DNA of 64,000 nt from Curtanaerobium respiraculi (GTDB taxonomy: Bacteria; Actinomycetota; Coriobacteriia; Coriobacteriales; Eggerthellaceae), in contig NZ_JANIPD030000001.1 of assembly GCF_024609215.1 (NCBI RefSeq), forward strand, positions 1-64,000, read 5' to 3'. Below the pieces are notes generated by a model that did no database searches, was not told the DNA's origin, and was given only the letters and a program-made list of their open reading frames with translations. Shown here piece after piece: positions 307-13,950 of this stretch. How positions within the stretch are numbered: the first letter of the stretch is position 1; each line of letters opens with the position of its first letter. Position numbers and translations under genes: made by a program.

Positions 307-1464
307 TCAGCGCAACAGCCAGTCATGGGCACTCCAAACCTTGGCGGCACCAACCGAAGTCGACGCATCCGACCGCATGACGACGAACCTGTTCTTCTCC
401 GGAACGCCCAGCGACTCCCCCACAACCCCAAGGTTCTTCAAATACGAAGCCTGGAAGGACATGGTCGACTTGACCTCGACGAGCTCAATATTCTGCGAAT
501 CGGTTGAATCCACAAGATCGACCTCCACTTTCCGGTCATCGCGGTAGAAGAACAGCCGGGGTTCCCTGCCTGCGTTGATATGGCGCTTCATCGTCTCTTC
601 CACGATGAGGTTTTCGAATATCGCCCCGCGAAATGGGCTGTCGCGCAGCTGCTCGGACGATTGGATGCCCAGCAGATAGCAGAGCAGGCCGGTATCGTAG
701 AAGTACAGCTTCGGGGTCTTGGTAAGCCGCTTGCGCAGGTTGGCGAAGTACGGCTGCAAGCGGAAGACGATGTAGCTCGACTCGAGCAGGGACATCCATG
801 ATTCAACCGTCGGCCGCGCGATCCCCGCGTCCGCCGCCAACCGGGAGATGTTGACGAGCGACCCCGCACACTGGGCGCAGAGCTGCAAAAGCTTCCGGAA
901 CGTCGAGAGGTTGCGCGCCTCGACATATCCCGCAATATCGCGCTGGACATACGTGTCCACATAGTTCCGGTAGAAGACCGAGCCGGGAATACTCGCGGCA
1001 TGCACGCGCGGATAGCCGCCGGAGAGCATGAACGAATCCGGGCTGATCTGCGAATCCGATCGATGAGCTTCCTTATACGAAAGCGGGAGGAGAGGAATCG
1101 TGCCCACCCGTCCAGCGAGAGACTGGGAAATGCCCTTCGCAATCAAAAAGTTCTGAGACCCGGAGAGGACATACTGGCCAGTCGACCCGCGGGAATCCGA
1201 AGCTACCTGGACTGCGTCGAACAAGGCGGGCAAGCGTTGGGCTTCGTCAATGATCATGCGGTCGGAGCGCTCTTTAATGAAGTCCGAAGCACTCGCCGCG
1301 GCCAGGTTGAAATCCGCCTCGTCCTCCAAGTTGACATAGGCATAGTCGGGAAACAAGGCTTTGACCAGCGTGGATTTACCTGACTGGCGCGGCCCCACTA
1401 CGGAGACCACGGGGAACCACGTCGCATTTTGCTCGATGAAGTCGGAAACGTCGCGATCGATCAT
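307..1464 (-). CDS. AAA-type ATPase with C-terminal DUF4143-like domain
   Basis: The protein is 385 aa from the ATG at 1464, which has a GAAAGGAAG ribosome site; an upstream ATG at 1500 lacks one. The N-terminal half is an AAA ATPase with a Walker A (VVGPRQSGKSTLV) near the start, a Walker B-like segment (RMIIDEAQRLP) and a sensor segment (YVLSGSQNFLI). The C-terminal half has the DUF4143 pattern, including FYRDDRKVEVDLV and the nuclease-like VEVKST. The family is widespread and its function is poorly defined; some members are proposed to act in stress or toxin-like roles. It stands alone, 246 bp downstream of the GH13 stop, with an AT-rich upstream region. Family membership is secure; cellular role is unknown. 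Confidence 0.88.
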   Translation of the reverse strand: MIDRDVSDFIEQNATWFPVVSVVGPRQSGKSTLVKALFPDYAYVNLEDEADFNLAAASASDFIKERSDRMIIDEAQRLPALFDAVQVASDSRGSTGQYVLSGSQNFLIAKGISQSLAGRVGTIPLLPLSYKEAHRSDSQISPDSFMLSGGYPRVHAASIPGSVFYRNYVDTYVQRDIAGYVEARNLSTFRKLLQLCAQCAGSLVNISRLAADAGIARPTVESWMSLLESSYIVFRLQPYFANLRKRLTKTPKLYFYDTGLLCYLLGIQSSEQLRDSPFRGAIFENLIVEETMKRHINAGREPRLFFYRDDRKVEVDLVDSTDSQNIELVEVKSTMSFQASYLKNLGVVGESLGVPEKNRFVVMRSDASTSVGAAKVWSAHDWLLR

Positions 1465-1514
1465 GCCGTGGCTTCCTTTCGAATTTGCAGTGAGGATCAT
1501 TCATGATTGCGAAG

Positions 1515-1710: not shown

Positions 1711-4011
1711 CTATTCGCACGAGTTCATCAAGCCCTCTACCGAGAACACCGCGGCCTGGCTGGGGTCGACGACCCCGTGGATGACGCCGTCCTCGTTCGC
1801 GCAGGACGCCTCTCCCAGATATCGTGCGGGCCGCCCGGTAAAGCGCATGTGGCAACCACCCGTTTCGCCCCCTTCGGGCGCCAGCAGGTCCGCCGAGTAT
1901 GGGAGCGGCCGATCGGAGCGGTTCGCGACGCATATGAGCGATCCCCGCGCGAGGACGAGCACGTCCGGGTTGGAGGCGAGCGCGACCAACCTCCCCTCCA
2001 AGCCCGGAAGCGCGCGCATCTCGCCCAATGCGCGGTAGTGGCGGGTCGCATCCTCGCCGCAATCGCGACGCGCTTCCCCCCAGGGGAACGTCCCGCGATT
2101 GAACGGGTCTCCCCCGCCCTGCATGCCCCGCTCATCTCCGTAGTACAGGCAGGGGATGCCGGGGATGAAGTACTGCACGGTCGCAAGCAGCTTCTGCAAC
2201 CGAGCGCCGTGGGCATCCTGCGCGGCGTCTATCCCGCGCACCGCCTCCAGCTGCGCGCCGCGCGCCATGCCCTTGATCCCGCGCCCGAGAGACAGCACCG
2301 TGCGCATCCGCTCGACGTCGTGCGACGAGGTGAGGTTCATGAGCGTCTCGTACATCGGCCGCGGGTACGCGCTCTGCTGCAAGCGCAGGAAGCTGGCGAG
2401 CTGGTACGCATCGATATCGCCGCAGCCGAAGGCGAGCAGCGCCGAGCGCAGGGGGTAGTTCATCACGGAATCCAACGCTGTCCCCAGCGCATACCGCCGT
2501 CTGCTGCCGTAGCTCGCTTTGGTCGTCGGATCCTCCCACACCTCGCCGATCACCGCTCCATCGGGGAGAGCGCCTTTCACGGATCGGCGGATCTTCTCCA
2601 AAACGTCGTCGGGAAGCTCGTCGGCGACATCCAAGCGGAAGCCCCGCGCACCGCGCGCGATCCAACGCGGGAGCACTCCGGAGGTGCCCTCCCCGCCGGC
2701 CGCCTCCGCCCCTTCCGGGCGAAGCGGCCCCAGAACGTTCCGCTGCCAGCTCCCGTCGTGCTCGTTCACCTCGGGCAACGTGGGGAACCCCCACCAGCAG
2801 CGATACGCGGCCCCGCCGCTCGGATGGTCGAAGTCGTACCATGCGCGGTACGGCGAATCAGGGCTGTTCCAGGCGCCCGGCCCATCGTAGTTTCCGCTGA
2901 GGTTGAAGTACACGCTGTCGGATCCCGTGTGCGAGAGCACGGCATCCAACACGAGGGATATCCCCCGCTCGCGTGCCGCCTTCGCGAGATGCTCGAAATC
3001 GGCTTCCGTGCCCAGCAGCGGGTCGGGCTTGCCGTAGTCGGCGGTATCGTACCGATGGTTGCTGCGCGCCTCCACGATCGGGTTGAGATACACGACCGTC
3101 ACGCCCAGCGAGGCGAGGTAGGGAAGCTTCTCCTCGATTCCCCGGAACGTTCCGCCGTAGAAGTCGACGGGATCGTAGGGTTCCTCCCACTCCATCGGCT
3201 CGCCCCAACGCCCGTGCATATGTACGGGGCGCCCCATGGACTCATGGTAGGCCACGCCCTCGCGTCGGATCCCGTCCTCTCCACGGGCAAACCGATCGGG
3301 AAATATCTGGTACATAACCCCTCGGCGCAGCCAATCGGGCGTTGCGAACGACGCGTCGTAGACGGTGATCTGGAATCCGAGCGGCTGCGTTCCGATAGCG
3401 GTATAGGAACCGCTTAGGGCGCGGAGCGCGTCCTCCGCGGTGAAAACCGCCTCGCCCGAGGTGGCGCGCCCGTCGTGACAGGGCACGTAGTAGACGGCCG
3501 ATCCGTCATCGAGCGTCAGCGAAAACGCGTAGAACACGACATGGGGGGCATCCCCCATCGCGATAGCCGCTCCAAAACCGCGATCGGTCGATCCGAGGGG
3601 CAGCGCCCGCCAGCCGGCGGCTGCGAGCAGCGAGTCTTCGGCGCGCGCGGCGGCACCGATGCGCAGAGGCGTTTCGAACCGCTTCCGACCGTCCGGGAAA
3701 GATCTAGGGGGAGTTCCCCAATCTGATGGCAGGGGACCGAGATGCCGATCCCGATCCGCCGAAAGGGCATCGGAGCGTTGCTGGCGATCGGTTTGCGTGG
3801 GATCCGCATGCCCGTCCCCGGATTCCCAAGCGGTATCGTAGACGAGCAGGTCTGCCCGGCGCACCCGCGGCTGCAAGTCTCGATGCACGCGTATGCGCAC
3901 CTGCACGCTTTCCCCCACGGGAACCGCGCCGGCAGGCCACCGATCATCAAGACGGCACGGATCATGCGCGATCTGCAGATTCAAATCCTCCGCCAAAGCC
4001 CATGCCTCCAT
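1711..4011 (-). CDS. GH13 alpha-glucan hydrolase (neopullulanase/cyclomaltodextrinase-like)
   Basis: The protein is 766 aa. After about 240 residues of N-terminal beta-rich module comes a GH13 barrel opening with [18 protein letters not shown]. Barrel motifs are visible: DAVLSHTG (region I), GFRLDVADE with the nucleophile Asp (region II), VIGEVWED with the acid/base Glu (region III) and SSHDVERM with the stabilising Asp (region IV). It probably hydrolyses alpha-1,4 (and possibly alpha-1,6) bonds in dextrins. No signal peptide is evident, so it is probably cytoplasmic and acts on glycogen-derived dextrins. It lies on the same strand as the glg operon but is separated from glgP by the 4.2-11.5 kb accessory block. 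The ATG at 4011 has a weak ribosome site; an in-frame TTG nine codons later follows a better GGAGG. Confidence 0.9.
2012..2066. repeat. Source copy of the 55-bp duplicated segment
   Basis: This stretch in the 3' part of the GH13 gene is identical to 193-247. Because it is in frame within an intact enzyme gene, it is presumably the original and 193-247 the duplicate. Confidence 0.8.
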
Positions 4012-4227: not shown

Positions 4228-4443
4228 CTACCGCGCAACCGCCGCGGCTTTCCGCGCGAAGGTGCAATAGGGGTTCTCCTCGTACTCGGCCATGGAGGCC
4301 TCGCCGGTCTCCCAATACACGGCGCCCCACGCCCTGAGCACCTTCTCAGCGGAGTATCCCATCAACTCGACTGTTGCCGGGTAGTCGTAGCCCGACGCGG
4401 CCAGAGCCTCCTGGACGATCCTTCTCTCCTCGCGTCCGTACAT
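4228..4443 (-). pseudogene. IS3-family OrfA-like transposase remnant
   Basis: A 71-aa reading frame starts at 4443 behind a good GGGAGGGA ribosome site. Its first 45 or so residues (MYGREERRIVQEAL, then LMGYSAEKVLRAW and ETGE) follow the layout of the helix-turn-helix at the start of IS3-type OrfA proteins, which typically open MYSYEDR and contain LGYPSxxxLxxWY. The frame ends soon after, and no OrfB integrase domain or terminal repeats are visible, so this is probably a stub. It lies just downstream of the helicase gene, at the edge of the accessory block. The call rests on pattern resemblance only; a small orphan HTH protein is the alternative. Confidence 0.55.
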
Positions 4444-4513
4444 GCGGCATCCCTCCCGTTCCTGTTTGGTCCAGGATTTCCACCGCAGTCCGCATCCTTG
4501 CCTCACCCATAGC

Positions 4514-7500
4514 TCAGCATGCATCGCTACTATCAGAAACTACATCCGAAAGATGGCAGTAGGGGCATAGATTCAGGAAGAGATCACTCAGCTCGCCTTC
4601 GCTGGTCGAGCTGTTGGCAAAACGCTTGCGGAGCATCCCGAGAAGTTCTTCCTGATTCGGCTGCCCCATAACGGCTCGATACTCTGCAATTGTCGTAAGC
4701 AGGTAATCGTACAAATCGCCGTCACGGCTGAACGGGTAGTTGTAAACAAGTCGCACTATCGGCGAGACGTCCTCCCCGGCACGCACTCCCCAATACGGTA
4801 GGAGGCCTGATGGACCACCATCCAGGCTACCGGATCCGTTTTCCTTTTCGCTCGCAATCTCGAACAGCTCGTCCCATGCAAGTGGGCCGAAATCCACTTG
4901 GTCGCCGTACCGCCTGGCAAGCGTCTGGCGGACTGCGAGGTTCTTGTAGCGGTTGATGCGGCCCTCGCGTTGCTCGAAGTCTATGGGGCTGCTGGGCAGG
5001 TTCCAGTGGACGATCTGGCGGCAATACTGGTGGAAGTCGAGACCTTCCTGGCCGACCGAAGTGCTTATCAGGACGAACGGCCTGAAAGGAGAGTTGAACG
5101 CGGCTCTCAGCTCGGTTCGCCTGTTCTCGGCCTTGCCATCCCCAGTGCGGCTCTCCATGAAACCGGCCGCATAGTTCATATGAAGTCGCGTCACGAATGC
5201 CTTCCGCTGCCCAGCGCCAAGAACGTCCTGTTTGAACTGCGGGTACGTGTCCGCCTCATACAACCCTTCCGCCTTATGGAGGCTCGGCGTCTTGTCGTTG
5301 CCGATCCTGTCGCCGACGATCGCCTTGTGCGCCCGCACGACGTCACCGTCGAAGACAAGATGGAAGTACTCGTCCAGCACTGCCTGGAAGTTACCCTCGC
5401 AGCAGTAGTCGAGCACATGCTTCCAGTGGGCGTCCGCAGAAGTGGACAGGTTCCTCCTCTCGGTGACCGCGGCTATGCACGTCGTTGCGTCCGCGGTGTT
5501 CATCTTCGTGACGAAAGAGTACCCGAATTCGAAAGGCAGCGCAGGGTCCACCTCGCCGGGCAATCCGCCATGCGCGTACGTCCTGAGCGCGCAGACGGCG
5601 GGCGAGCCGATGGCGGCATCGACCAGAGCATCGACGAGATCGTCGGGGAACTCGGACATGTGCTCGCTGGGCGACCACTGCGCAAGCATCTCGACGTACG
5701 ACTTCATGTTACCCATAGCAGAGGGGTAGCTTTTCCTCAAAGCAGCGTTGGCAACGAGGCATTCCGCCCATTCCGAGCTACCCAGGTACCACCTATCCAA
5801 AGCAAGCTCCGCATACGCATACCAGGAGAGATTGCTTCGGGCGCTGCCGTCCGGGAGCCTCCTGAGGCCCAGGACGATGGCGAGGTCCGCTGATATCTTC
5901 TCCGAGACCACTGAGCGGATGCGCTCGAGCCCCGGCGGCTCTCCCTCGACAGAGCAGAACTCCACCGCGTCTGCGAGGTACTGGGACGGGTACGCAAGCA
6001 CGAAGGAATCGGGCCGAGAACCCGCCAGGTGCAGCCTTCCCCTAGGCGTGAGATGGGAGTCCGTGCTGTCGTCGTCGCCTTTCTGAAAATACCTGTAGTC
6101 CTCGCCATGACGTGCGATGCTAGCAACGTTTTTCTGCTCCGCCTCGTACGAGAGGAGCGTCGCCACGGCGGGGGGAACCATCGCCCATGACGAGAAGACG
6201 AGGGTTTTGCTGAAGCCTTCGGATTTCGCGAAGGGCGAAGAATCGTTAGGCTTGTAGTAGGGCATGCTAGGCGGAACCCAGAGCAGGCGTTCGGATTGCG
6301 AATCACCAAGCAGGTCACGCTTGAGACGCTGGTAGCGCGCATGCTGCACATCTATCGGCTTGTACGTGCTCATGCGGTTCCAATTTACCCACAGGCGGCG
6401 TCGTTGTTTCCTGGCGATCCTGTCCACCGCCGTCCAGTTCGATGTCGCATTCCTCGTTAGCTGACGTTTGAACTCGTACTCCCTCATGAACGAGAGAGGA
6501 TACGGGCAGGACTTCACGTAATCGGGGCTGATAAGGCCGCTCCTGACGCCCGCTGCGGAGCCGATGTCGCTCAGCGCGAAATAGGCTGCTATGTCATCTT
6601 CGGTGATGGCGAGGGGTTCGGGCTTGACGGCCCCCTGCACCTGGCCCACCATCTCCTCGGTAGACGTCCGCTCAGTCCTCGCCATGAAGCCGAGCATTGA
6701 TTCCTGGACGTTCTCCTTGCACTCCTTGCATGTCACGACGATGGCGCTGTCGCCGAGCGTGGCGGACACAAGCGCATGCCCATATTCGCTCCATGCCTCC
6801 TGGAACGCCGCTTTCGATTTCTGGCTTCCGGACGTGAGGAAGTCGACGACCTGGAGGAACTCGTGGGCGGAATCACCGAATTCCTCATCGTCATCCTCGT
6901 CGGGCGTTGTGTACATCCGGAAGGGAGTTGCCGACAGAAGCAAAACGCGCGTATCACCGCTGAAGAACCGCTTGGCAAGCAGGCTCGTCTCGGTATCGTT
7001 ATCCGAGATAAGATCCCTGAAACGCTGGAATTCGTCCATTATCACGAAGTCTGGATCCATCATGTCCATGCTCGCCTTCGAGAACGCGCGGCGCAACGAG
7101 GCGATTGCCAGGTTTCCGAAAGAACGGTTGTCGTCCGGACCGTTCTCTTCGAGGTAGGCAGCCAGGTCCGCTAGCGAGACCCGCTCGTCGGCGAGCTCCC
7201 CGCGAACGCATTCTATGAAATCGCCCGGGTACTCGGAGCCATCGCCCAATGACGCGACGCCTAGGCTTGCCTCCCTGACCGCCCGGTCCATCTCATCGCA
7301 CAAATAGTCCCAGTTGTCTTTTCTGAAACCCAGCTCGTAGGACCACATGAACCGGCGAAGCCTGCCGAGAAGCGTCCCATTGCCGCTGAACTCCGCGGCC
7401 CGGGAGAGGGTCGCGTATATGAGCGCGCGCTCGCGCATGGTTCCGGTTCCCGTGCTCAGTTTGAACGACGTCCCGGGCGTGAGCGGCGTTATCTGCACGT

Positions 7501-7894
7501 AGCGCCTCTTCAGTTCCGGGTCGCACCTCTCCTGCGCCAACCTGAGATGCTGCATCGACAACCTGGAGTCCTGGGCAGATGAAAGCTCGATGTCGGCGTC
7601 GATGCGCAGCTTCTGCACGTTCTGGTTTGCAATGGAGCCGTTGGCGCAGATGTACACGACCTTCACGAGGTCATCGCCTTCGGCGCTGCGCATACCCGCG
7701 ACTTTGGACACGACGCCCCTCGCAACGAGCGTCTTCCCGAGCCCTACCTCATCGGCGAGCAGGACGCGCTTCTGGCTCTTGAACAGGTGCGCTATATGTT
7801 CCGTTGTCGCACGCTGGAACGGCTTGAGGCCGGCCATGATCCGCTCGTCGATCTGCGCGAGCTCGGCACGAATGTCCCTCGCTTGTTTACCCAT
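4514..7894 (-). CDS. Large SNF2/DEAD-like helicase of a putative DNA-targeting system
   Basis: The protein is 1126 aa. The N-terminal RecA-like lobe has motif I (LLADEVGLGKTLVARG, about residues 45-60), a DExx motif II (VIMDEFQRF) and motif III (VLLLSATPF). The C-terminal lobe has the combined motif V/VI segment (STSVGQEGLDFHQYC, then QREGRINRYKN). Long family-specific inserts separate the lobes. A Cys/His cluster ends the protein (LNLCPYCH). Such enzymes use ATP to move on or remodel double-stranded DNA and are common motors in restriction-like systems. The start overlaps the end of the PLD gene by 8 bp, indicating translational coupling. No nuclease motif is seen in the helicase itself. Helicase identity is firm; the defence role is inferred from its neighbours. 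Confidence 0.88.
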   Translation of the reverse strand: MGKQARDIRAELAQIDERIMAGLKPFQRATTEHIAHLFKSQKRVLLADEVGLGKTLVARGVVSKVAGMRSAEGDDLVKVVYICANGSIANQNVQKLRIDADIELSSAQDSRLSMQHLRLAQERCDPELKRRYVQITPLTPGTSFKLSTGTGTMRERALIYATLSRAAEFSGNGTLLGRLRRFMWSYELGFRKDNWDYLCDEMDRAVREASLGVASLGDGSEYPGDFIECVRGELADERVSLADLAAYLEENGPDDNRSFGNLAIASLRRAFSKASMDMMDPDFVIMDEFQRFRDLISDNDTETSLLAKRFFSGDTRVLLLSATPFRMYTTPDEDDDEEFGDSAHEFLQVVDFLTSGSQKSKAAFQEAWSEYGHALVSATLGDSAIVVTCKECKENVQESMLGFMARTERTSTEEMVGQVQGAVKPEPLAITEDDIAAYFALSDIGSAAGVRSGLISPDYVKSCPYPLSFMREYEFKRQLTRNATSNWTAVDRIARKQRRRLWVNWNRMSTYKPIDVQHARYQRLKRDLLGDSQSERLLWVPPSMPYYKPNDSSPFAKSEGFSKTLVFSSWAMVPPAVATLLSYEAEQKNVASIARHGEDYRYFQKGDDDSTDSHLTPRGRLHLAGSRPDSFVLAYPSQYLADAVEFCSVEGEPPGLERIRSVVSEKISADLAIVLGLRRLPDGSARSNLSWYAYAELALDRWYLGSSEWAECLVANAALRKSYPSAMGNMKSYVEMLAQWSPSEHMSEFPDDLVDALVDAAIGSPAVCALRTYAHGGLPGEVDPALPFEFGYSFVTKMNTADATTCIAAVTERRNLSTSADAHWKHVLDYCCEGNFQAVLDEYFHLVFDGDVVRAHKAIVGDRIGNDKTPSLHKAEGLYEADTYPQFKQDVLGAGQRKAFVTRLHMNYAAGFMESRTGDGKAENRRTELRAAFNSPFRPFVLISTSVGQEGLDFHQYCRQIVHWNLPSSPIDFEQREGRINRYKNLAVRQTLARRYGDQVDFGPLAWDELFEIASEKENGSGSLDGGPSGLLPYWGVRAGEDVSPIVRLVYNYPFSRDGDLYDYLLTTIAEYRAVMGQPNQEELLGMLRKRFANSSTSEGELSDLFLNLCPYCHLSDVVSDSSDAC

Positions 7895-9788
7895 GCCGCC
7901 TCACCGCTTTATCGAACTGGGCTACCATGTCGCGCATCATCTTGATCCCGGCATCGTCGTACTTGCTCGGTAGGAACGAAAGCATGAGCTTTGCGTAATC
8001 GAGCTGCTCTCGGGCGTTCGGCGCGACGGCAAGGACCTTCAGCAACGATTCGTATATCCCCCCGCTTACGCCCGCGGCTGCGAGCCCGCCGTACGGCGCA
8101 GACCCACGGTTCTGGGCAGCATCCCCGCTGGGCGGCTGCATCCCGAAAGCGAGCGCGATGTAGGACGCGAGCACGCCGGAGTTTGCCTCCAGGATACCTT
8201 CGAGAACGCGCTTGATCCTCCCGTCCCTCTCATCCGGGCAGACGAACGACGAGTCGGGACAACGCACCAGGCAGCTTGTTCTGTAGTCATCGGACTCCGA
8301 GATGCCTTCCAGCACGAAGAACTCCGACTCGTTGTTTGCAGGGACTCCCTTGAATTCGGCCCGTCCTCCAGGTGCCGCGATTTCCATGGGGTCGACTTTT
8401 ACGAGATAGGGCGACAGGCTCAGAGCCAGGCAGGTGTCGAAACCGTTGAACAGCGGCAGCGAGTAATCGACCACCATGCGCTCCTCGCCGGGAAATGCCT
8501 CCGCTCGCCTGAACTCCAGGAGCTTGGCCGCGGCATGGAAGGATCTGTCGAGTTCGATGCGGCGCGCGATCTGTTCTTCGGACAGCTCCTCGGGCAGAAC
8601 ATTCGGCTTGTTCGGGTCGTAGGGCCCAAAGGGCTTCTTGTCACCGGCAAGCGATGCGACGAGGTCGTCTGCACTCAGCCTCCGCTTCTTCATCTGGAGG
8701 CGCAGGAGCACCTCCACGTTCCCCACCATTCCGTTGTGCGAAGCGTTCAGGGATCCGAGATAGAGATTCCGGTCGGCGTATCTCTCGGTCAGATACAGCT
8801 TCGCATGCAGGTCCGAATAGTCGACCGCGTTCGGCGCCCCCTCGCCGTCATCCTCGAGCGACACGTCGGAGAGCCAGTCCTTCGGTGCGTAACAGCTGTA
8901 TTTCGCGAGGAGGCCGCTGTCAATCTTCGCCAGCTCGGACTCCCTGCTGAACAAATGGAAGTTCTCGTTGGGACCGTTGCCGATGCGGTTCTGCGCGAGG
9001 CGCTTCAGCGGGCCGTCGTTCCCGAGGAACGGGGACACCACCACCGCCTTGGTGAATCTATCCGTAAACGGCGGTGTCTCTGACGCATCGAGCAAGCCCG
9101 AGCTTGAAGGGCCGAACGGCAGGAACTCATAGTCTTCGAAATACGTGCTGTCGACTTCGAAGCGGACCGTCGCAATCGCGTCGGATAGGCGCTTCAGAAG
9201 CCTGCGCGTCTCGCGGTCACCCTCCACGCCGTTGCTGTTTCGAAGATAATCGAGGAATCTCACGATTCCGCCCGATTCCGGCACGAAGCTCCCCGTGTCA
9301 TGTCCGTCTAGACGTGCGGCGACGTCCCATGATCCGCTGAAGGTGAGGTTCTTGCTCGTGACCAGCAGCCTGTATCGGTGCTCGTTGTTTGCGGTGCAGA
9401 CGAAGTCGAGGAGCCAGACCTTCGGATGGAAGGATGAGATGGACGTGCCGGCGCTGCGTGGACGGCGTACGATGACCTGGTTTACGAGCGGCTCTAGCAG
9501 AATCGCGAGCTGCCCCGTCCTGTCCTCGTCCTTGATCCGCCCCTTTTCGCAGAAGACGGCGACCTTCCCCCGAAGTTTCGCTATCGAGGCGAACGCGCCG
9601 ACAGGATTGCCGTTCGACGAGCCGCTTCGGAACACGCCTCCGGCAAGCGACATGCAGGCGCCGAGCATCGCGCTCATGTCGAGCGAGTACGTGGTCCCCA
9701 CGCATGCGGCGAGCTCATACCCGTCCTCGGGAGCCAGCTGGTCGGTGAAGTCGAGCCTCTCGTTTTCCATCTCAAGCATCTTCGTCAC
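7887..9788 (-). CDS. Phospholipase-D-like (two HKD motif) putative nuclease
   Basis: The protein is 633 aa with a GTG start at 9788, overlapping the previous gene by 17 bp. Two PLD-type motifs are visible: an N-terminal SSFHPKVWLLDF with TSKNLTFSG, and a later DLHAKLYLTERY with GSLNASHNG. These supply the paired His-x-Lys catalytic residues of the superfamily, so a complete active site can be expected from one chain. In helicase-linked systems the family usually acts as a metal-independent nuclease rather than a lipase. No signal peptide or membrane segment is evident. Its position between the DUF6361 and helicase genes suggests the helicase is its motor. The biochemical target is inferred. 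Confidence 0.85.
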   Translation of the reverse strand: MTKMLEMENERLDFTDQLAPEDGYELAACVGTTYSLDMSAMLGACMSLAGGVFRSGSSNGNPVGAFASIAKLRGKVAVFCEKGRIKDEDRTGQLAILLEPLVNQVIVRRPRSAGTSISSFHPKVWLLDFVCTANNEHRYRLLVTSKNLTFSGSWDVAARLDGHDTGSFVPESGGIVRFLDYLRNSNGVEGDRETRRLLKRLSDAIATVRFEVDSTYFEDYEFLPFGPSSSGLLDASETPPFTDRFTKAVVVSPFLGNDGPLKRLAQNRIGNGPNENFHLFSRESELAKIDSGLLAKYSCYAPKDWLSDVSLEDDGEGAPNAVDYSDLHAKLYLTERYADRNLYLGSLNASHNGMVGNVEVLLRLQMKKRRLSADDLVASLAGDKKPFGPYDPNKPNVLPEELSEEQIARRIELDRSFHAAAKLLEFRRAEAFPGEERMVVDYSLPLFNGFDTCLALSLSPYLVKVDPMEIAAPGGRAEFKGVPANNESEFFVLEGISESDDYRTSCLVRCPDSSFVCPDERDGRIKRVLEGILEANSGVLASYIALAFGMQPPSGDAAQNRGSAPYGGLAAAGVSGGIYESLLKVLAVAPNAREQLDYAKLMLSFLPSKYDDAGIKMMRDMVAQFDKAVRRHG

Positions 9789-11037
9789 CAGCCATCCAGA
9801 CCTCGTTAGCGAACGACGCGGCGACCTCGAAGCGGTATGAAAGCCTTCTGCCGCCTCGCCAGTTATCCGGGATCCCTTCAGATCTTCCTATTTTCGCCCG
9901 TTCGTGCTTGATGGAGCGCTCTCGGATCCGTATGCATTCATCCAACCTCGCGACATCCCCTTCAGCCATGCAGCTGCGTGCCTCAAGGAGGAACTGGTAA
10001 AGCGGGTGCGAACCCGCGTGCGAGAAGATGTCGAGGTGCTCGTATATCCAGTCGATATCGAGTGCGTTCGCGATAAGCGGCGCCGTCGGAGAGATTACCG
10101 ACCATTCCTGCTCGGCTTCCTCCCCTGTCGTGTCCAGCTGCGCGTTGTAGCGGATGCGGCATGCGTAAATGAAATCGCTGAATGCGACGGCATGTGTGAG
10201 CATATCGCCGAGCCCCTCATCCACCATCCCGCGCACCTTGCTTGCAAATGCCGGGAACGCGTTTGCAGCGGCAAGGGATGCATCCTCGTCGCCCTCCTGC
10301 GAACCCTGCGCGAATGCCCCGGTCGCCGTAGCGTAGACGTCGGGATCCTGCATGATGAGCGAGTACAGCGATTCCGGATATTTCAATTCCAGTTGCCGCC
10401 GGAGGAAAGACGCTTCCTCTTGCGTGAGGGCGATCGAGGCACTGTCGTGCCAATTCGCATATGATGCATCGGGGATGTGCCATAGGCTCTGCGACGCCAT
10501 GTCGTCATCGTTCCACCCGTTGGCGGCGTCTTCCGCCGACGACCGGCGACGCGAAGAGGCGCCCCGCCCCTCGATGGTTCTGAAGAACTCGTCGAATCCC
10601 ATATCTGGATTCCTGCAAAGGCCGAGTTTTCTGATCGTCGCCCAGTAGATCACCGCAGGACCCCGCTTGACCCAATGCCCTGAGAAATCGCCCCTGAGGG
10701 AGCGCGCGCCGATGATGCCCGTGGTATCGGCGGCGTTTGCCTTCAGGAGCCTTATGGCGAGCTGCTTTTCACGGTCGTCGTAGCTTCTTCTAAGCTGCCG
10801 GGCTGTCTTCGATGTGTTGTCCTCGCGCTCCATGTCCCTCAATGCATAGGGGACGAGGAAGAGGTAGCGAGCCTTGGTGAACAGCGTGGATGTCGTCGGA
10901 AAGAGCTCGTCGGCGAAGGCGTCTCTTACGATTCCGATGCCCAGCTCGTCTATGGCGGTCGGTTCTTGAAGAGCCGCAAGGACCGCAAGCGTCTTCTGAC
11001 GGGCCTCCTCCGAGTAGTCTATCCAACCAAGCTCCAT
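9772..11037 (-). CDS. DUF6361 family protein
   Basis: The protein is 421 aa. The N-terminus (ELGWIDYSEEARQKTLAVL, then ELGIGIVRDAFADELFP and TKARYLFLVPYAL) matches the layout I associate with DUF6361, a family of unknown function often seen beside helicase and PLD genes in accessory regions. No catalytic motif, membrane segment or signal peptide can be recognised. The ATG at 11037 overlaps the stop of the upstream small gene (TGATG), and the end overlaps the PLD start by 17 bp, so these genes are co-transcribed and translationally coupled. A recognition or adaptor subunit is a reasonable but unproven guess. Confidence 0.75.
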   Translation of the reverse strand: MELGWIDYSEEARQKTLAVLAALQEPTAIDELGIGIVRDAFADELFPTTSTLFTKARYLFLVPYALRDMEREDNTSKTARQLRRSYDDREKQLAIRLLKANAADTTGIIGARSLRGDFSGHWVKRGPAVIYWATIRKLGLCRNPDMGFDEFFRTIEGRGASSRRRSSAEDAANGWNDDDMASQSLWHIPDASYANWHDSASIALTQEEASFLRRQLELKYPESLYSLIMQDPDVYATATGAFAQGSQEGDEDASLAAANAFPAFASKVRGMVDEGLGDMLTHAVAFSDFIYACRIRYNAQLDTTGEEAEQEWSVISPTAPLIANALDIDWIYEHLDIFSHAGSHPLYQFLLEARSCMAEGDVARLDECIRIRERSIKHERAKIGRSEGIPDNWRGGRRLSYRFEVAASFANEVWMAGDEDA

Positions 11038-11471
11038 CAGTCGTCATCCTCCGCGACTTGCTCGTCGATGTCGAACCCGCCGTCGAGGATGAATCTCCTC
11101 AGAAGCCTGTCCACGCGCACGTTCACCTTGAACACGGGGGTCTTGGCACCTTCCCTTCCCTCGAAGAACGCCTTCGCCTTGGCCTTGCCAACGGTGCCCT
11201 TAAGCTTGCCGAAACGCTGGCATTCGTTGATGTTCGCCTCGGTCAGGCCAGAGGCGATCATTTCTCTTAACATGACCTCGTCTACTCCGGGAGACTCGAC
11301 GACTTGCAGAAGCTGTCCACCCTTCGCGCGCCGGTGGTATTCGGCGATGTAGTTTCGCAGCGTCTTGCCCCCTTGAAGGTGCATCTCGTCGTATCTTGCG
11401 TTGCAGTCCTCAATGCCCTTGATGTGCTTGCAGTGAGACAACCTTTCGGCATCTGGCCAAGCGAGATCCAA
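11037..11471 (-). CDS. Small or 5'-truncated first gene of the helicase/PLD operon
   Basis: Family not recognised. The frame is open up to and into glgP. Usable starts are a TTG at 11471, with AGGGGG immediately before it and no proper spacing, or an ATG at 11384 without a clear ribosome site. These give 144 or 115 aa. The part after about residue 15 looks protein-like, with a basic helical centre (VGKAKAKAFFEG), a FKVNVRVDRLLRRFILDGG segment and an acidic end (VAEDDD). Its TGA overlaps the DUF6361 ATG, so it belongs to that operon. Because the frame runs straight into the glgP stop codon at 11476-11478, this is either a small coupled protein or the C-terminal stump of a larger gene cut at the insertion junction. 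Confidence 0.5.
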   Translation of the reverse strand: MDLAWPDAERLSHCKHIKGIEDCNARYDEMHLQGGKTLRNYIAEYHRRAKGGQLLQVVESPGVDEVMLREMIASGLTEANINECQRFGKLKGTVGKAKAKAFFEGREGAKTPVFKVNVRVDRLLRRFILDGGFDIDEQVAEDDD

Positions 11472-11475
11472 CCCC

Positions 11476-13950
11476 CTATTCAAGGGCGTCCAAATGCCAG
11501 ATGGTGTCGTTGTACTCCCGGATCGCGCGATCGCTGCTGAAGAAACCCGATTTCGCCGTGTTGATGACCGCGCGCCGCAGCCATTCGTCATGGTTGTTGG
11601 CATACAAGTCGATGGCCTGGAAGAACGCACGGTCGTAATCGTCGAAATCGTGAAGGACGAAATACTGGTCCCCGCCGTCGCCAGGGCACAGCGAGTAGTA
11701 GATATCCTCGAACCGGGTGCCGTCATCGGTGGGCAGGCCGCCATCGATCAGATGGTGCAGCGCGCTGCCGACGCGCGGATCGCCCTCGGCGATGCCGCGG
11801 GGATGATACCCTTCCTGCTTCAAGCGGTCCAGATCTTCGACGCGCGCGCCGAAGATGAACAGGTTCTCCTCGCCCGCCTGCTCCGACATCTCGATGTTGG
11901 CGCCGTCCATGGTTCCGATCGTGAGCGCGCCGTTCATCATGAACTTCATGTTGCCCGTACCCGACGCCTCCAGCCCGGCCGTGGAGATCTGCTCGGATAT
12001 GTCGGCCGCCGGGATGAGCCGCTGCGCCGTGGTCACGTCGTAGTTGGGCACGAACACGACGGGGATGACATCTCGCGTGCGCTCATCGTCGGCGATGAGC
12101 TGCGACACCGCGTTGATGAGCCGGATGATGTCCTTCGCGCGACGGTACCCCGGCGCGGCCTTCGCGGCGAATATGAACGTCGTTTTCGGGAAGTCTTGGA
12201 TGCGCCCGCTGACGATGCCGTCGTACAGGCTCAGGATATGGAGGACCTTCAGCAGCTGCCGTTTGTACTCGTGCAGGCGCTTGGCTTGCACGTCGATGAT
12301 GGAATCCGGGTCGACGGCCAGGCCGTGCTTCGCCTTGAGCCATGCGGCGAATTCGATTTTCTTCTCCGCCTTGACCTGCGCGAACTTTGAGCGGAACCGG
12401 GAATCGTCCGCAAAGGGGACCAGATCCGCAAGCTTCGTCCAATCTTTGAGGAACCCCTCCCCGATGGTTTTGTCGACCAAGCTGTTCAACTGCGGGTTGG
12501 CGACCGCCAGCCAGCGCCGCTGCGTGATGCCGTTCGTGATGCCGCTGAACCGCTCGGGGTAGAGCGCGTAGAAGTCGCGGAAGACGCTCGTGCGCAGCAG
12601 ACGGCCGTGCAGCTGCGACACGCCGTTGGTATGCCCGCACATCAGCACGCACAGGTTCGCCATGCGCACCTCGCCGCCGTTGATGATGGACATGCGGGCG
12701 ATGCGGTCCGCGTCGCCGGGATACTGCTGCCAGATTCGGTCGCGCACGCGGGCGTCGATCGTCTCGATGATGCGGTAGATGCGCGGCACCAGGTTGCGCA
12801 GCACATCGGCGGGCCACTTCTCGAGCGCCTCGGGCATGATGGTGTGGTTGGTGTAGTTGAAGGTGCGCGTGGCAAGGTCGACGGCTTCCTCCCACGTCAA
12901 CCCTTCATTGTCGATGAGGATACGGATGAACTCGGGGATGGAGAGCGCGGGATGCGTGTCGTTGATCTGGACGGCGATCTTGTCCGGCAGCCCCTGCAGG
13001 CGCACATCGTCGGGATTGCGCTTCTTATACGAGTAGATGACCGACTGCATGGTCGCGGAGACGAGGAAGTAGAACTGGCGCAGGCGCAGCTCCTTGCCCG
13101 ACGAATGGCTGTCTTCGGGGTACAGGACCTTCGAGATGGTCTCGGCGAGCTCGCGCTCGGCCGCCGCGGCGGCGTAATCGCCCTGGTTGAAGCTGATCAG
13201 GTCGAGCTCCTTGGGGGCCTGGGCCGCCCATAGGCGCAGCGTCGCGGGGCATTTCGTCTTATAGCCCACCACCGGCATGTCGTGCGGCACCGCGTACACA
13301 CTCTGGTAATCATGGTACTCCACCTGCAGATGCCCCTCGTCATCCCAATGTTCCTCCACGTGGCCCCCGAAGCGCACCTCGACCATGCGGTCGGAGCGCT
13401 CCATCTGCCAGACGTCCTCCTCGGCGTCCCAGTCATCGGGCACCTCGACCTGGCGTCCGTGCTCGATCTCCTGGCGGAACAGCCCGTACTCGTAGCGGAT
13501 GCCGAACCCCATGGCGGGGAATTCGAGCGTGGAGAGGCTGTCGAGGAAGCAGGCGGCCAAGCGGCCCAGGCCGCCGTTGCCGAGGCCCTTGTCGGCCTCC
13601 TCGTCCTCGATGACGCCGAAATCGACGCCCATGCTCTCCAGCGCCGCGGCGTAATCCTCGTACAGCCCCATGTTCACCAAGTTGTTGGTGAGCGCCCGGC
13701 CCATGAGGAACTCCGCGGACAGGTAGATAAGGCACTTGTTGCCCTGCTTTTGCGACGCGCTGCGGCCGTCGATCCACACGTCGACGATGTCGTCGCGCAC
13801 GCACCGCCCCACGGCCTGGTAGATCTGCTCGGTCGAGGCGTCTTCCGACGTGATGCCGTAGCGTTTGCGCAGGCGCTTCTCGATGCGCTCGCAGATCTCG
13901 GCCGTGCGCGCCGCCTTGGGCTGCGGCTGAACTTCTTTTTCCTCAGACAT
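11476..13950 (-). CDS. glgP: Glycogen/starch phosphorylase
   Basis: At 824 aa this is full length for the family. It releases glucose-1-phosphate from alpha-1,4 ends of glycogen using pyridoxal phosphate. The PLP-lysine region is clear near the C-terminus (EASGTGNMKFMMNG), followed by TIGTMDGANIEM. Other signatures include LIYLSAEFLMGRALTNNL and GLGNGGLGRLAACFLDS near the N-terminus, and QVKRLHEYKRQLL-like VQAKRLHEYKRQLL. It is the last gene of the glg operon, 73 bp after glgA, and its stop directly abuts the accessory operon with no terminator in between. It supplies the degradative arm of the pathway. Confidence 0.97.
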   Translation of the reverse strand: MSEEKEVQPQPKAARTAEICERIEKRLRKRYGITSEDASTEQIYQAVGRCVRDDIVDVWIDGRSASQKQGNKCLIYLSAEFLMGRALTNNLVNMGLYEDYAAALESMGVDFGVIEDEEADKGLGNGGLGRLAACFLDSLSTLEFPAMGFGIRYEYGLFRQEIEHGRQVEVPDDWDAEEDVWQMERSDRMVEVRFGGHVEEHWDDEGHLQVEYHDYQSVYAVPHDMPVVGYKTKCPATLRLWAAQAPKELDLISFNQGDYAAAAAERELAETISKVLYPEDSHSSGKELRLRQFYFLVSATMQSVIYSYKKRNPDDVRLQGLPDKIAVQINDTHPALSIPEFIRILIDNEGLTWEEAVDLATRTFNYTNHTIMPEALEKWPADVLRNLVPRIYRIIETIDARVRDRIWQQYPGDADRIARMSIINGGEVRMANLCVLMCGHTNGVSQLHGRLLRTSVFRDFYALYPERFSGITNGITQRRWLAVANPQLNSLVDKTIGEGFLKDWTKLADLVPFADDSRFRSKFAQVKAEKKIEFAAWLKAKHGLAVDPDSIIDVQAKRLHEYKRQLLKVLHILSLYDGIVSGRIQDFPKTTFIFAAKAAPGYRRAKDIIRLINAVSQLIADDERTRDVIPVVFVPNYDVTTAQRLIPAADISEQISTAGLEASGTGNMKFMMNGALTIGTMDGANIEMSEQAGEENLFIFGARVEDLDRLKQEGYHPRGIAEGDPRVGSALHHLIDGGLPTDDGTRFEDIYYSLCPGDGGDQYFVLHDFDDYDRAFFQAIDLYANNHDEWLRRAVINTAKSGFFSSDRAIREYNDTIWHLDALE

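Follow-up and report, generated by a model that had tools for sequence, protein, structure and literature searches.

In a 64,000-nucleotide stretch of the Curtanaerobium respiraculi genome (contig NZ_JANIPD030000001.1, positions 1 to 64,000; hereafter the window), three overlapping genes interrupt a run of glycogen-metabolism genes. They encode a DUF6361 protein, a PLD-superfamily protein and a large helicase-like motor. Judged by its sequence, this operon is a diverged, intact-looking member of the catalogued and named defence system Azaca/Zac, and we refer to the genes as zacA, zacB and zacC. All three products match the corresponding models of PADLOC-DB 2.0.0, namely ZacA (PDLC03828, E = 2.4e-78, residues 3-413 of 421), ZacB (PDLC03829, E = 1.9e-105, residues 4-626) and ZacC (PDLC03830, E = 2.5e-264, residues 16-1112). 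The locus therefore shares with Azaca/Zac all three genes at near full length, in the order A-B-C and on one strand. It differs in its divergence, in the cysteines at the end of ZacC and in the remnants of hsdR and of a transposase at its borders. The best identities found for the Curtanaerobium respiraculi copy were about 40% for ZacA, 35-36% for ZacB and 44-45% for ZacC.

The Pfam matches agree in part with this assignment. DUF6361 (PF19888) was above its cut-off in ZacA (E = 8e-20), as were DEAD and Helicase_C in ZacC; no NCBIfam model reached its cut-off for the proteins of the locus. The next-best matches of ZacC are helicases of other defence systems, PDC-M27C (E = 1e-22), DrmD (7e-14), DpdE (7e-13) and BrxHI (5e-12), and are mostly confined to the shared helicase core. 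That Azaca and the Zac system of PADLOC are one system we assume from the gene name ZacC, which both use. PMC12278908 names 'Azaca (ZacC)' among those DefenseFinder database systems in which an SF1/SF2 helicase is encoded. Azaca itself was reportedly first described by Millman et al. in Cell Host Microbe in 2022, together with data on protection against phages. A literature search returned nothing on DUF6361 and no exact-phrase match for the Zac gene or system names. When 'Zac' was combined with PADLOC, DISARM or BREX, the word was absent among the literature matches listed, and the matches listed for 'Azaca' came from chemistry and medicine and are hence uninformative on the defence literature.

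An earlier note, made by a model from the letters of the window and a list of its open reading frames (ORFs), had described the three genes as a compact accessory module and a candidate uncharacterised defence system. The observation of the gene set is confirmed, and its interpretation is partly supported. The view that the set matches nothing nameable no longer holds, and a match to a described system, which the note itself had counted against its reading, was found in part, through PADLOC Zac/Azaca. The PADLOC and DUF6361-anchored neighbourhood checks proposed there gave the Zac matches and placed some copies beside restriction or other defence genes. An apparently unnamed operon can thus be assigned, as a divergent copy, to a defence system that is already catalogued, and the Azaca identity slightly raises our confidence in a defence role.

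Motifs, gene order and distribution

ZacB contains two HxK half-sites, with an N and an E/D downstream (H121/K123/N147 and H328/K330/N348/E359). These residues, together with G345, S346 and N357, are invariant in all 70 ZacB proteins of at least 540 aa. The two-HKD PLD protein of the earlier note was therefore correctly recognised as regards the half-sites, present in 70 of 70, but not as regards the trailing D: in the textbook pattern HxKxxxxD this residue is conserved, whereas ZacB positions 128 and 335-336 vary among the 70. The HxK...N...E pattern occurs in PLD-type nucleases such as BfiI. No solved relative of ZacB was found at E = 1.

In ZacC we recognise motifs I (DEVGLGKT), II (DEFQRF), III (SATP) and VI (QREGR). 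The motif residues (Walker A, DEFQ, SATP and QREGR) are conserved in 59-63 of the 63 ZacC proteins of at least 940 aa, and a comparison with solved structures gave two weak helicase matches. The cysteine-rich end that the earlier note ascribed to the motor is real in this copy, but it is no feature of the family: a CxxC within the last 60 residues occurs in one of the 63 proteins, namely that of Curtanaerobium respiraculi, and we rejected it as a conserved zinc-binding feature. ZacA has many invariant residues. All 63 ZacA proteins compared match both DUF6361 (Pfam) and ZacA (PADLOC); six other Pfam families each match one member, with E of 0.014 or above.

The gene order was followed in loci found by scanning 84,980 species, each represented by one genome, with a ZacA pattern; this gave at least 500 stretches, at least 403 of them encoding relatives. 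The 85 loci counted below comprise the best 80 of these at least 403 confirmed relatives, plus the window and L036-L039. Since they come from the same genomes as L066-L071, L040 and L048-L052 were excluded, and L047/L053 (a fragment) is uncounted. ZacB is present in 83 of the 85 loci and ZacC in 73, always in the order A-B-C and on the same strand. Both loci without ZacB lie on contigs that end within 142 bases. Among the 12 loci without ZacC, 11 end no more than 142 bases past the last Zac gene, and L075 has 1,855 bases left. The order is thus beyond chance, since it recurs in all loci with downstream room except one, in keeping with the compact module of motor, PLD protein and DUF6361 protein that had been proposed. 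The zacB and zacC frames overlap in 51 of 73 loci, when starts are taken as the first in frame. Two loci (L068 and L070) have zacC split into two ORFs and two others (L096 and L120) have a split zacB; these may reflect either decay of the copies or errors in the sequencing.

The three-gene set keeps its order across many phyla, the titles of the records including Actinomycetota, Bacillota, Bacteroidota, Cloacimonadota, Spirochaetota, Planctomycetota, Verrucomicrobiota, Pseudomonadota and others. Closer to the source genome it is sparse. Strong ZacB matches (E = 1e-105 or better) were found in 5 of 396 genomes of the phylum, one of them cut by a contig end; a further 75 gave weak matches (best E = 5e-11), mostly to the HxK region only. 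ZacA was found in 2 of 138 genomes of the family and in 8 of 395 of the order, one a short fragment of 51 residues. At a loose threshold, control searches of 14 well-known genomes gave ZacB matches in 5 and ZacA matches in none.

ZacA is also encoded in 42 plasmid records, 19 of them from Cronobacter, and in one record of a phage collection; in a viral contig collection none of 9 stretches was confirmed. In both Cronobacter plasmid loci inspected a tyrosine recombinase gene lies just upstream of zacABC. Identical ZacA proteins occur in L078 and L079 (Hespellia) and L080 (Lacrimispora), and again in L075 and L141 (Velocimicrobium). Such identity across genera or bins points to recent transfer. 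In L053 a 124-aa ORF (8278-8652) beside a 1122-aa ORF contains a 52-residue ZacA match (60% identity), perhaps a relic of a replaced Zac.

The glycogen gene run and the borders of the operon

Five minus-strand frames lie between glgP and the amylase-like gene: the HsdR-tail ORF, zacA, zacB, zacC and a 98-aa ORF (table). The overlaps announced in the earlier note, 8, 17 and about 1-2 bp, measure 8 bases (zacC/zacB), 17 bases (zacB/zacA) and 1 base, the start of zacA sitting on the stop of the upstream ORF (TGATG). Because every ORF was started at the first start in frame, these lengths are upper bounds.

Features of the zac locus and its surroundings (positions in the window)
Feature	Position	Strand	Length and remarks
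glgP (context, upstream of insertion)	11476-13950	-	glycogen-metabolism gene
HsdR C-terminal remnant	11037-11384	-	~110 aa; homology to type I restriction R subunit
zacA (DUF6361)	9772-11037	-	421 aa
zacB (PLD-superfamily protein)	7887-9788	-	633 aa, GTG start; likely nuclease, from its sequence
zacC (SF2, SNF2/RapA-like helicase or translocase)	4514-7894	-	1126 aa
IS3-like (rve) transposase, N-terminal remnant	4228-4524	-	98-aa ORF; pairwise BLAST match
Alpha-amylase/pullulanase-like gene (context, downstream of insertion)	1711-4011	-	named by reading the sequence
AAA_14/DUF4143 ATPase	307-1500	-	PADLOC candidate PDC-S01, E = 5e-97

Relatives of the amylase-like gene (E = 1e-100 or better) were found in 21 of 138 genomes of the family, the source genome among them. 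In 11 of the 20 others we inspected the surrounding genes, and glgP adjoins the amylase gene in 10; in the remaining one glgP was not found within the stretch that holds the amylase gene. Seven of the ten pairs are co-directional, their aligned parts separated by less than about 90 bases, and three are tail to tail. Because glgP and the amylase gene are neighbours in 10 of these 11 relatives, the roughly 7.4-kb block that separates them in the window is, by this comparison, an insertion into a glycogen gene run, as the earlier note had proposed. The one further genome of this genus has, after glgP, an ORF resembling by eye a REP-type transposase, and no amylase match at the same threshold was found there. 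We found no convincing repeats flanking the insert. A scan of positions 10900-11700 with the sigma-70 consensus found no promoter between glgP and zacA, which is weak evidence; co-transcription of zac with glgP is therefore possible.

Both outer ORFs of the block proved to be remnants. The small first gene, taken in the earlier note as a member of the set, was rejected as such: it is the C-terminal tail of HsdR, with homology starting at about the ATG at 11384. It matches 75 plasmid records (best 48%, E = 3e-23), and the 20 matches listed of these 75 are all annotated as HsdR or restriction subunit R. Of 297 genomes of the order, 31 besides the source genome also contain a match (best 55%, E = 5e-33), 4 of the 31 a weak one (E above 1e-4). 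At the locus itself neither hsdM, hsdS nor a full hsdR was found, only this tail; elsewhere in the genome, contig C2 carries HsdS matches and a 995-aa frame that matches HSDR_N.

At the far end, pairwise BLAST aligns the 98-aa ORF with the beginning of a 565-aa ORF that contains HTH_Tnp_1, HTH_21 and rve domains (39% over 85 aa). By this similarity the 98-aa ORF is a transposase stub outside the Zac gene set; the stub had been rightly suspected from the letters of the window. Transposases of this type we take to be of the IS3 group. The 98-aa ORF had no match in the plasmid records.

Type I restriction genes upstream of zacA

The HsdR tail is not peculiar to the window. HsdR ORFs occur in 14 of the 85 loci, all of them upstream of ZacA and co-directional with it; eight, including that of the window, end no more than 62 bases from the ZacA start, and the other six lie at 644-4,430 bases. 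The 14 have three different best-matching HsdR queries, which were themselves taken from HsdR-Zac loci. With the window left out, the upstream sequence covered 594,856 bases versus 261,504 downstream. Five of the abutting cases (L075, L078, L079, L080 and L141) are near relatives, with ZacA 96-100% identical. On a ZacA tree of 78 rows the label for an upstream hsdR falls on 8 rows and requires 6 changes; among 500 shuffles, 13 gave as low a number; L105, L067 and L144 lack the label, and the rows L079, L080 and L141, with identical ZacA, were dropped. The association appears moderately clustered on this tree and not of single origin.

The fullest arrangement was seen in MT835621, where hsdM, a tyrosine recombinase gene, hsdS, a further ORF and hsdR are followed after 11 bases by zacA, zacB and zacC; read by eye, an extra HsdS-like piece precedes the recombinase. 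The record (MT835621.1, L158, 103-23224) is labelled Bacteriophage sp., unverified, from human faeces, and also encodes an ADP-ribosylglycohydrolase and a CHAP/lysozyme-like protein. In our reading it resembles a conjugative element more closely than a phage.

Short HsdR ORFs were also noted upstream of Zac in L080 (9338-9988, 216 aa) and L144 (5019-5558, 179 aa). Together with the tail in the window they hint at repeated loss of hsdR near Zac. The position of hsdR before zacABC is by itself no proof of joint action. The recurring physical link between zacABC and type I restriction operons is directly testable.

Proposed function and alternatives

We consider it probable that the operon is a mobile Azaca/Zac anti-phage module, restriction-like and with no methylase of its own, that came in behind a type I operon since lost. 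ZacC, the SNF2/RapA-like motor, would engage invading DNA and translocate along it, and cleavage of this DNA would fall to ZacB, the PLD-type protein with its two HxK half-sites. ZacA would be an obligate third part, most likely a sensor or adaptor that allows ZacB and ZacC to act. The module would have arrived behind a type I restriction operon, of which the hsdR tail on the 5' side would be the trace, and beside an IS3-like element, of which the transposase stub on the 3' side would be another. The insert would have settled between glgP and the amylase gene, the restriction operon would then have been lost, and the zac operon may now ride on transcription of the glycogen genes.

By its parts the nearest analogue of Zac appears to be DISARM. 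Both combine an SNF2-like motor with a PLD protein (ZacB matches DrmC at E = 0.004 only, and ZacC matches DrmD as given above). The Zac locus differs in having neither the DrmA-DrmB core (a helicase and a DUF1998 protein) nor a methyltransferase, which are typical of DISARM (PMC9142583). According to that paper DrmAB are considered to sense DNA structure and methylation, and the PLD protein DrmC is apparently non-essential. None of the six ORFs scanned at and around the operon is DrmA, DrmB or a DNA methyltransferase. The earlier statement that the set matches neither DISARM nor BREX is supported. Because DrmA, DrmB and a methylase were not found around Zac, self-recognition would have to depend on DNA structure, on a methylase encoded elsewhere or on a trigger supplied by the phage. 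The PLD-helicase anti-phage protein NF042964 likewise combines, by its name, a PLD and a helicase in one unit, but it is a single protein without DUF6361, and ZacC matches it at E = 2e-7, far below the cut-off.

Several observations weigh against the module proposed here. The PLD domain of ZacB is below its Pfam cut-off (E = 0.0025). ZacA has no convincing relative beyond DUF6361 in Pfam, PADLOC or PDB sequences (its profile gave two chance-level annexin matches in the PDB, E = 0.33 and 0.34), so that its role is a guess. The neighbours at this locus are glycogen genes, and the neighbour scans of other loci list 25 of 125 and 25 of 80 families, from which the share of defence genes is not derivable. 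Finally, the defence role of Zac is argued here from sequence.

The upstream hsdR genes might mean more than a shared vehicle. Zac could serve type I restriction-modification systems as a second restriction arm, reading the HsdMS methylation or acting when HsdR is blocked, the window copy being an orphan whose methylase was lost. The 14 co-directional HsdR ORFs, eight of them within 62 bases and in three query groups, the six changes on the ZacA tree and the single run of hsdM, recombinase, hsdS, hsdR and zacABC in MT835621 speak for it. We nevertheless regard it as unlikely: in 71 of the 85 loci the stretch examined contains no HsdR ORF (stretch lengths differ), upstream coverage was 2.3 times the downstream and would alone favour upstream finds, five of the eight abutting cases are the near relatives named above, and the two copies on Cronobacter plasmids are solitary, preceded by an integrase. 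The known system TgvAB also counts against it. As described in PMC11411939, it too is a separate defence set within a type I restriction-modification cluster; it is a GmrSD-like two-protein system with no Zac-like part, and it protects without the rest of the cluster, albeit 10- to 100-fold less against several phages. A more elaborate version, to which we likewise assign a low probability, would make Azaca/Zac a modular second effector, recruited several times behind hsdR by type I operons of different HsdR groups, so that one HsdMS methylation mark would steer two destruction machines; the window copy would have lost the mark, and the effector would have survived in a metabolic gene run.

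Zac could also act by abortive infection, ZacA and ZacC sensing a phage event and ZacB degrading DNA indiscriminately until the cell dies. The operon contains no methylase gene that we could see, and a nuclease with a sensor helicase resembles Hachiman (PMC12278908); no feature of the sequence, though, sets this apart from direct restriction, and we think it rather improbable. That the operon is decayed, or a housekeeping DNA-repair set with no defence function, is suggested by the flanking remnants of HsdR and of a transposase, but all three frames are open, the motifs are intact and the distribution is patchy, a search of the other available genome from this genus having given no ZacA match; we hold this to be very unlikely indeed.

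The other neighbours of Zac are varied. In tallies of the nearest neighbours, confined to genes of at least 120 aa within 3 kb that encode proteins of up to 1300 aa, and leaving out L067, L068, L078, L084, L095, L137, L139 and the window, REase_I models match 5 of 72 upstream genes, and type IV restriction enzymes, GajB, PbeA, DarG and Mrr domains occur among the 72 upstream and 57 downstream genes. A neighbour that resembles, by eye, an HTH-WYL regulator was noted in 10 loci (L082, L092, L103, L104, L107, L127, L128, L132, L136 and L144), and Pfam finds WYL in 2 of the 57 downstream genes. A protein similar to the PDC-S01-type AAA_14/DUF4143 ATPase of the window lies upstream of Zac in L066. 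Genes named by eye as ADP-ribosylglycohydrolase-like (9 loci) and macro-domain-like (7 loci) also lie near Zac, and a link of Zac to ADP-ribose or NAD chemistry is possible. Pfam confirms some of these among the nearest neighbours and adds NADAR.

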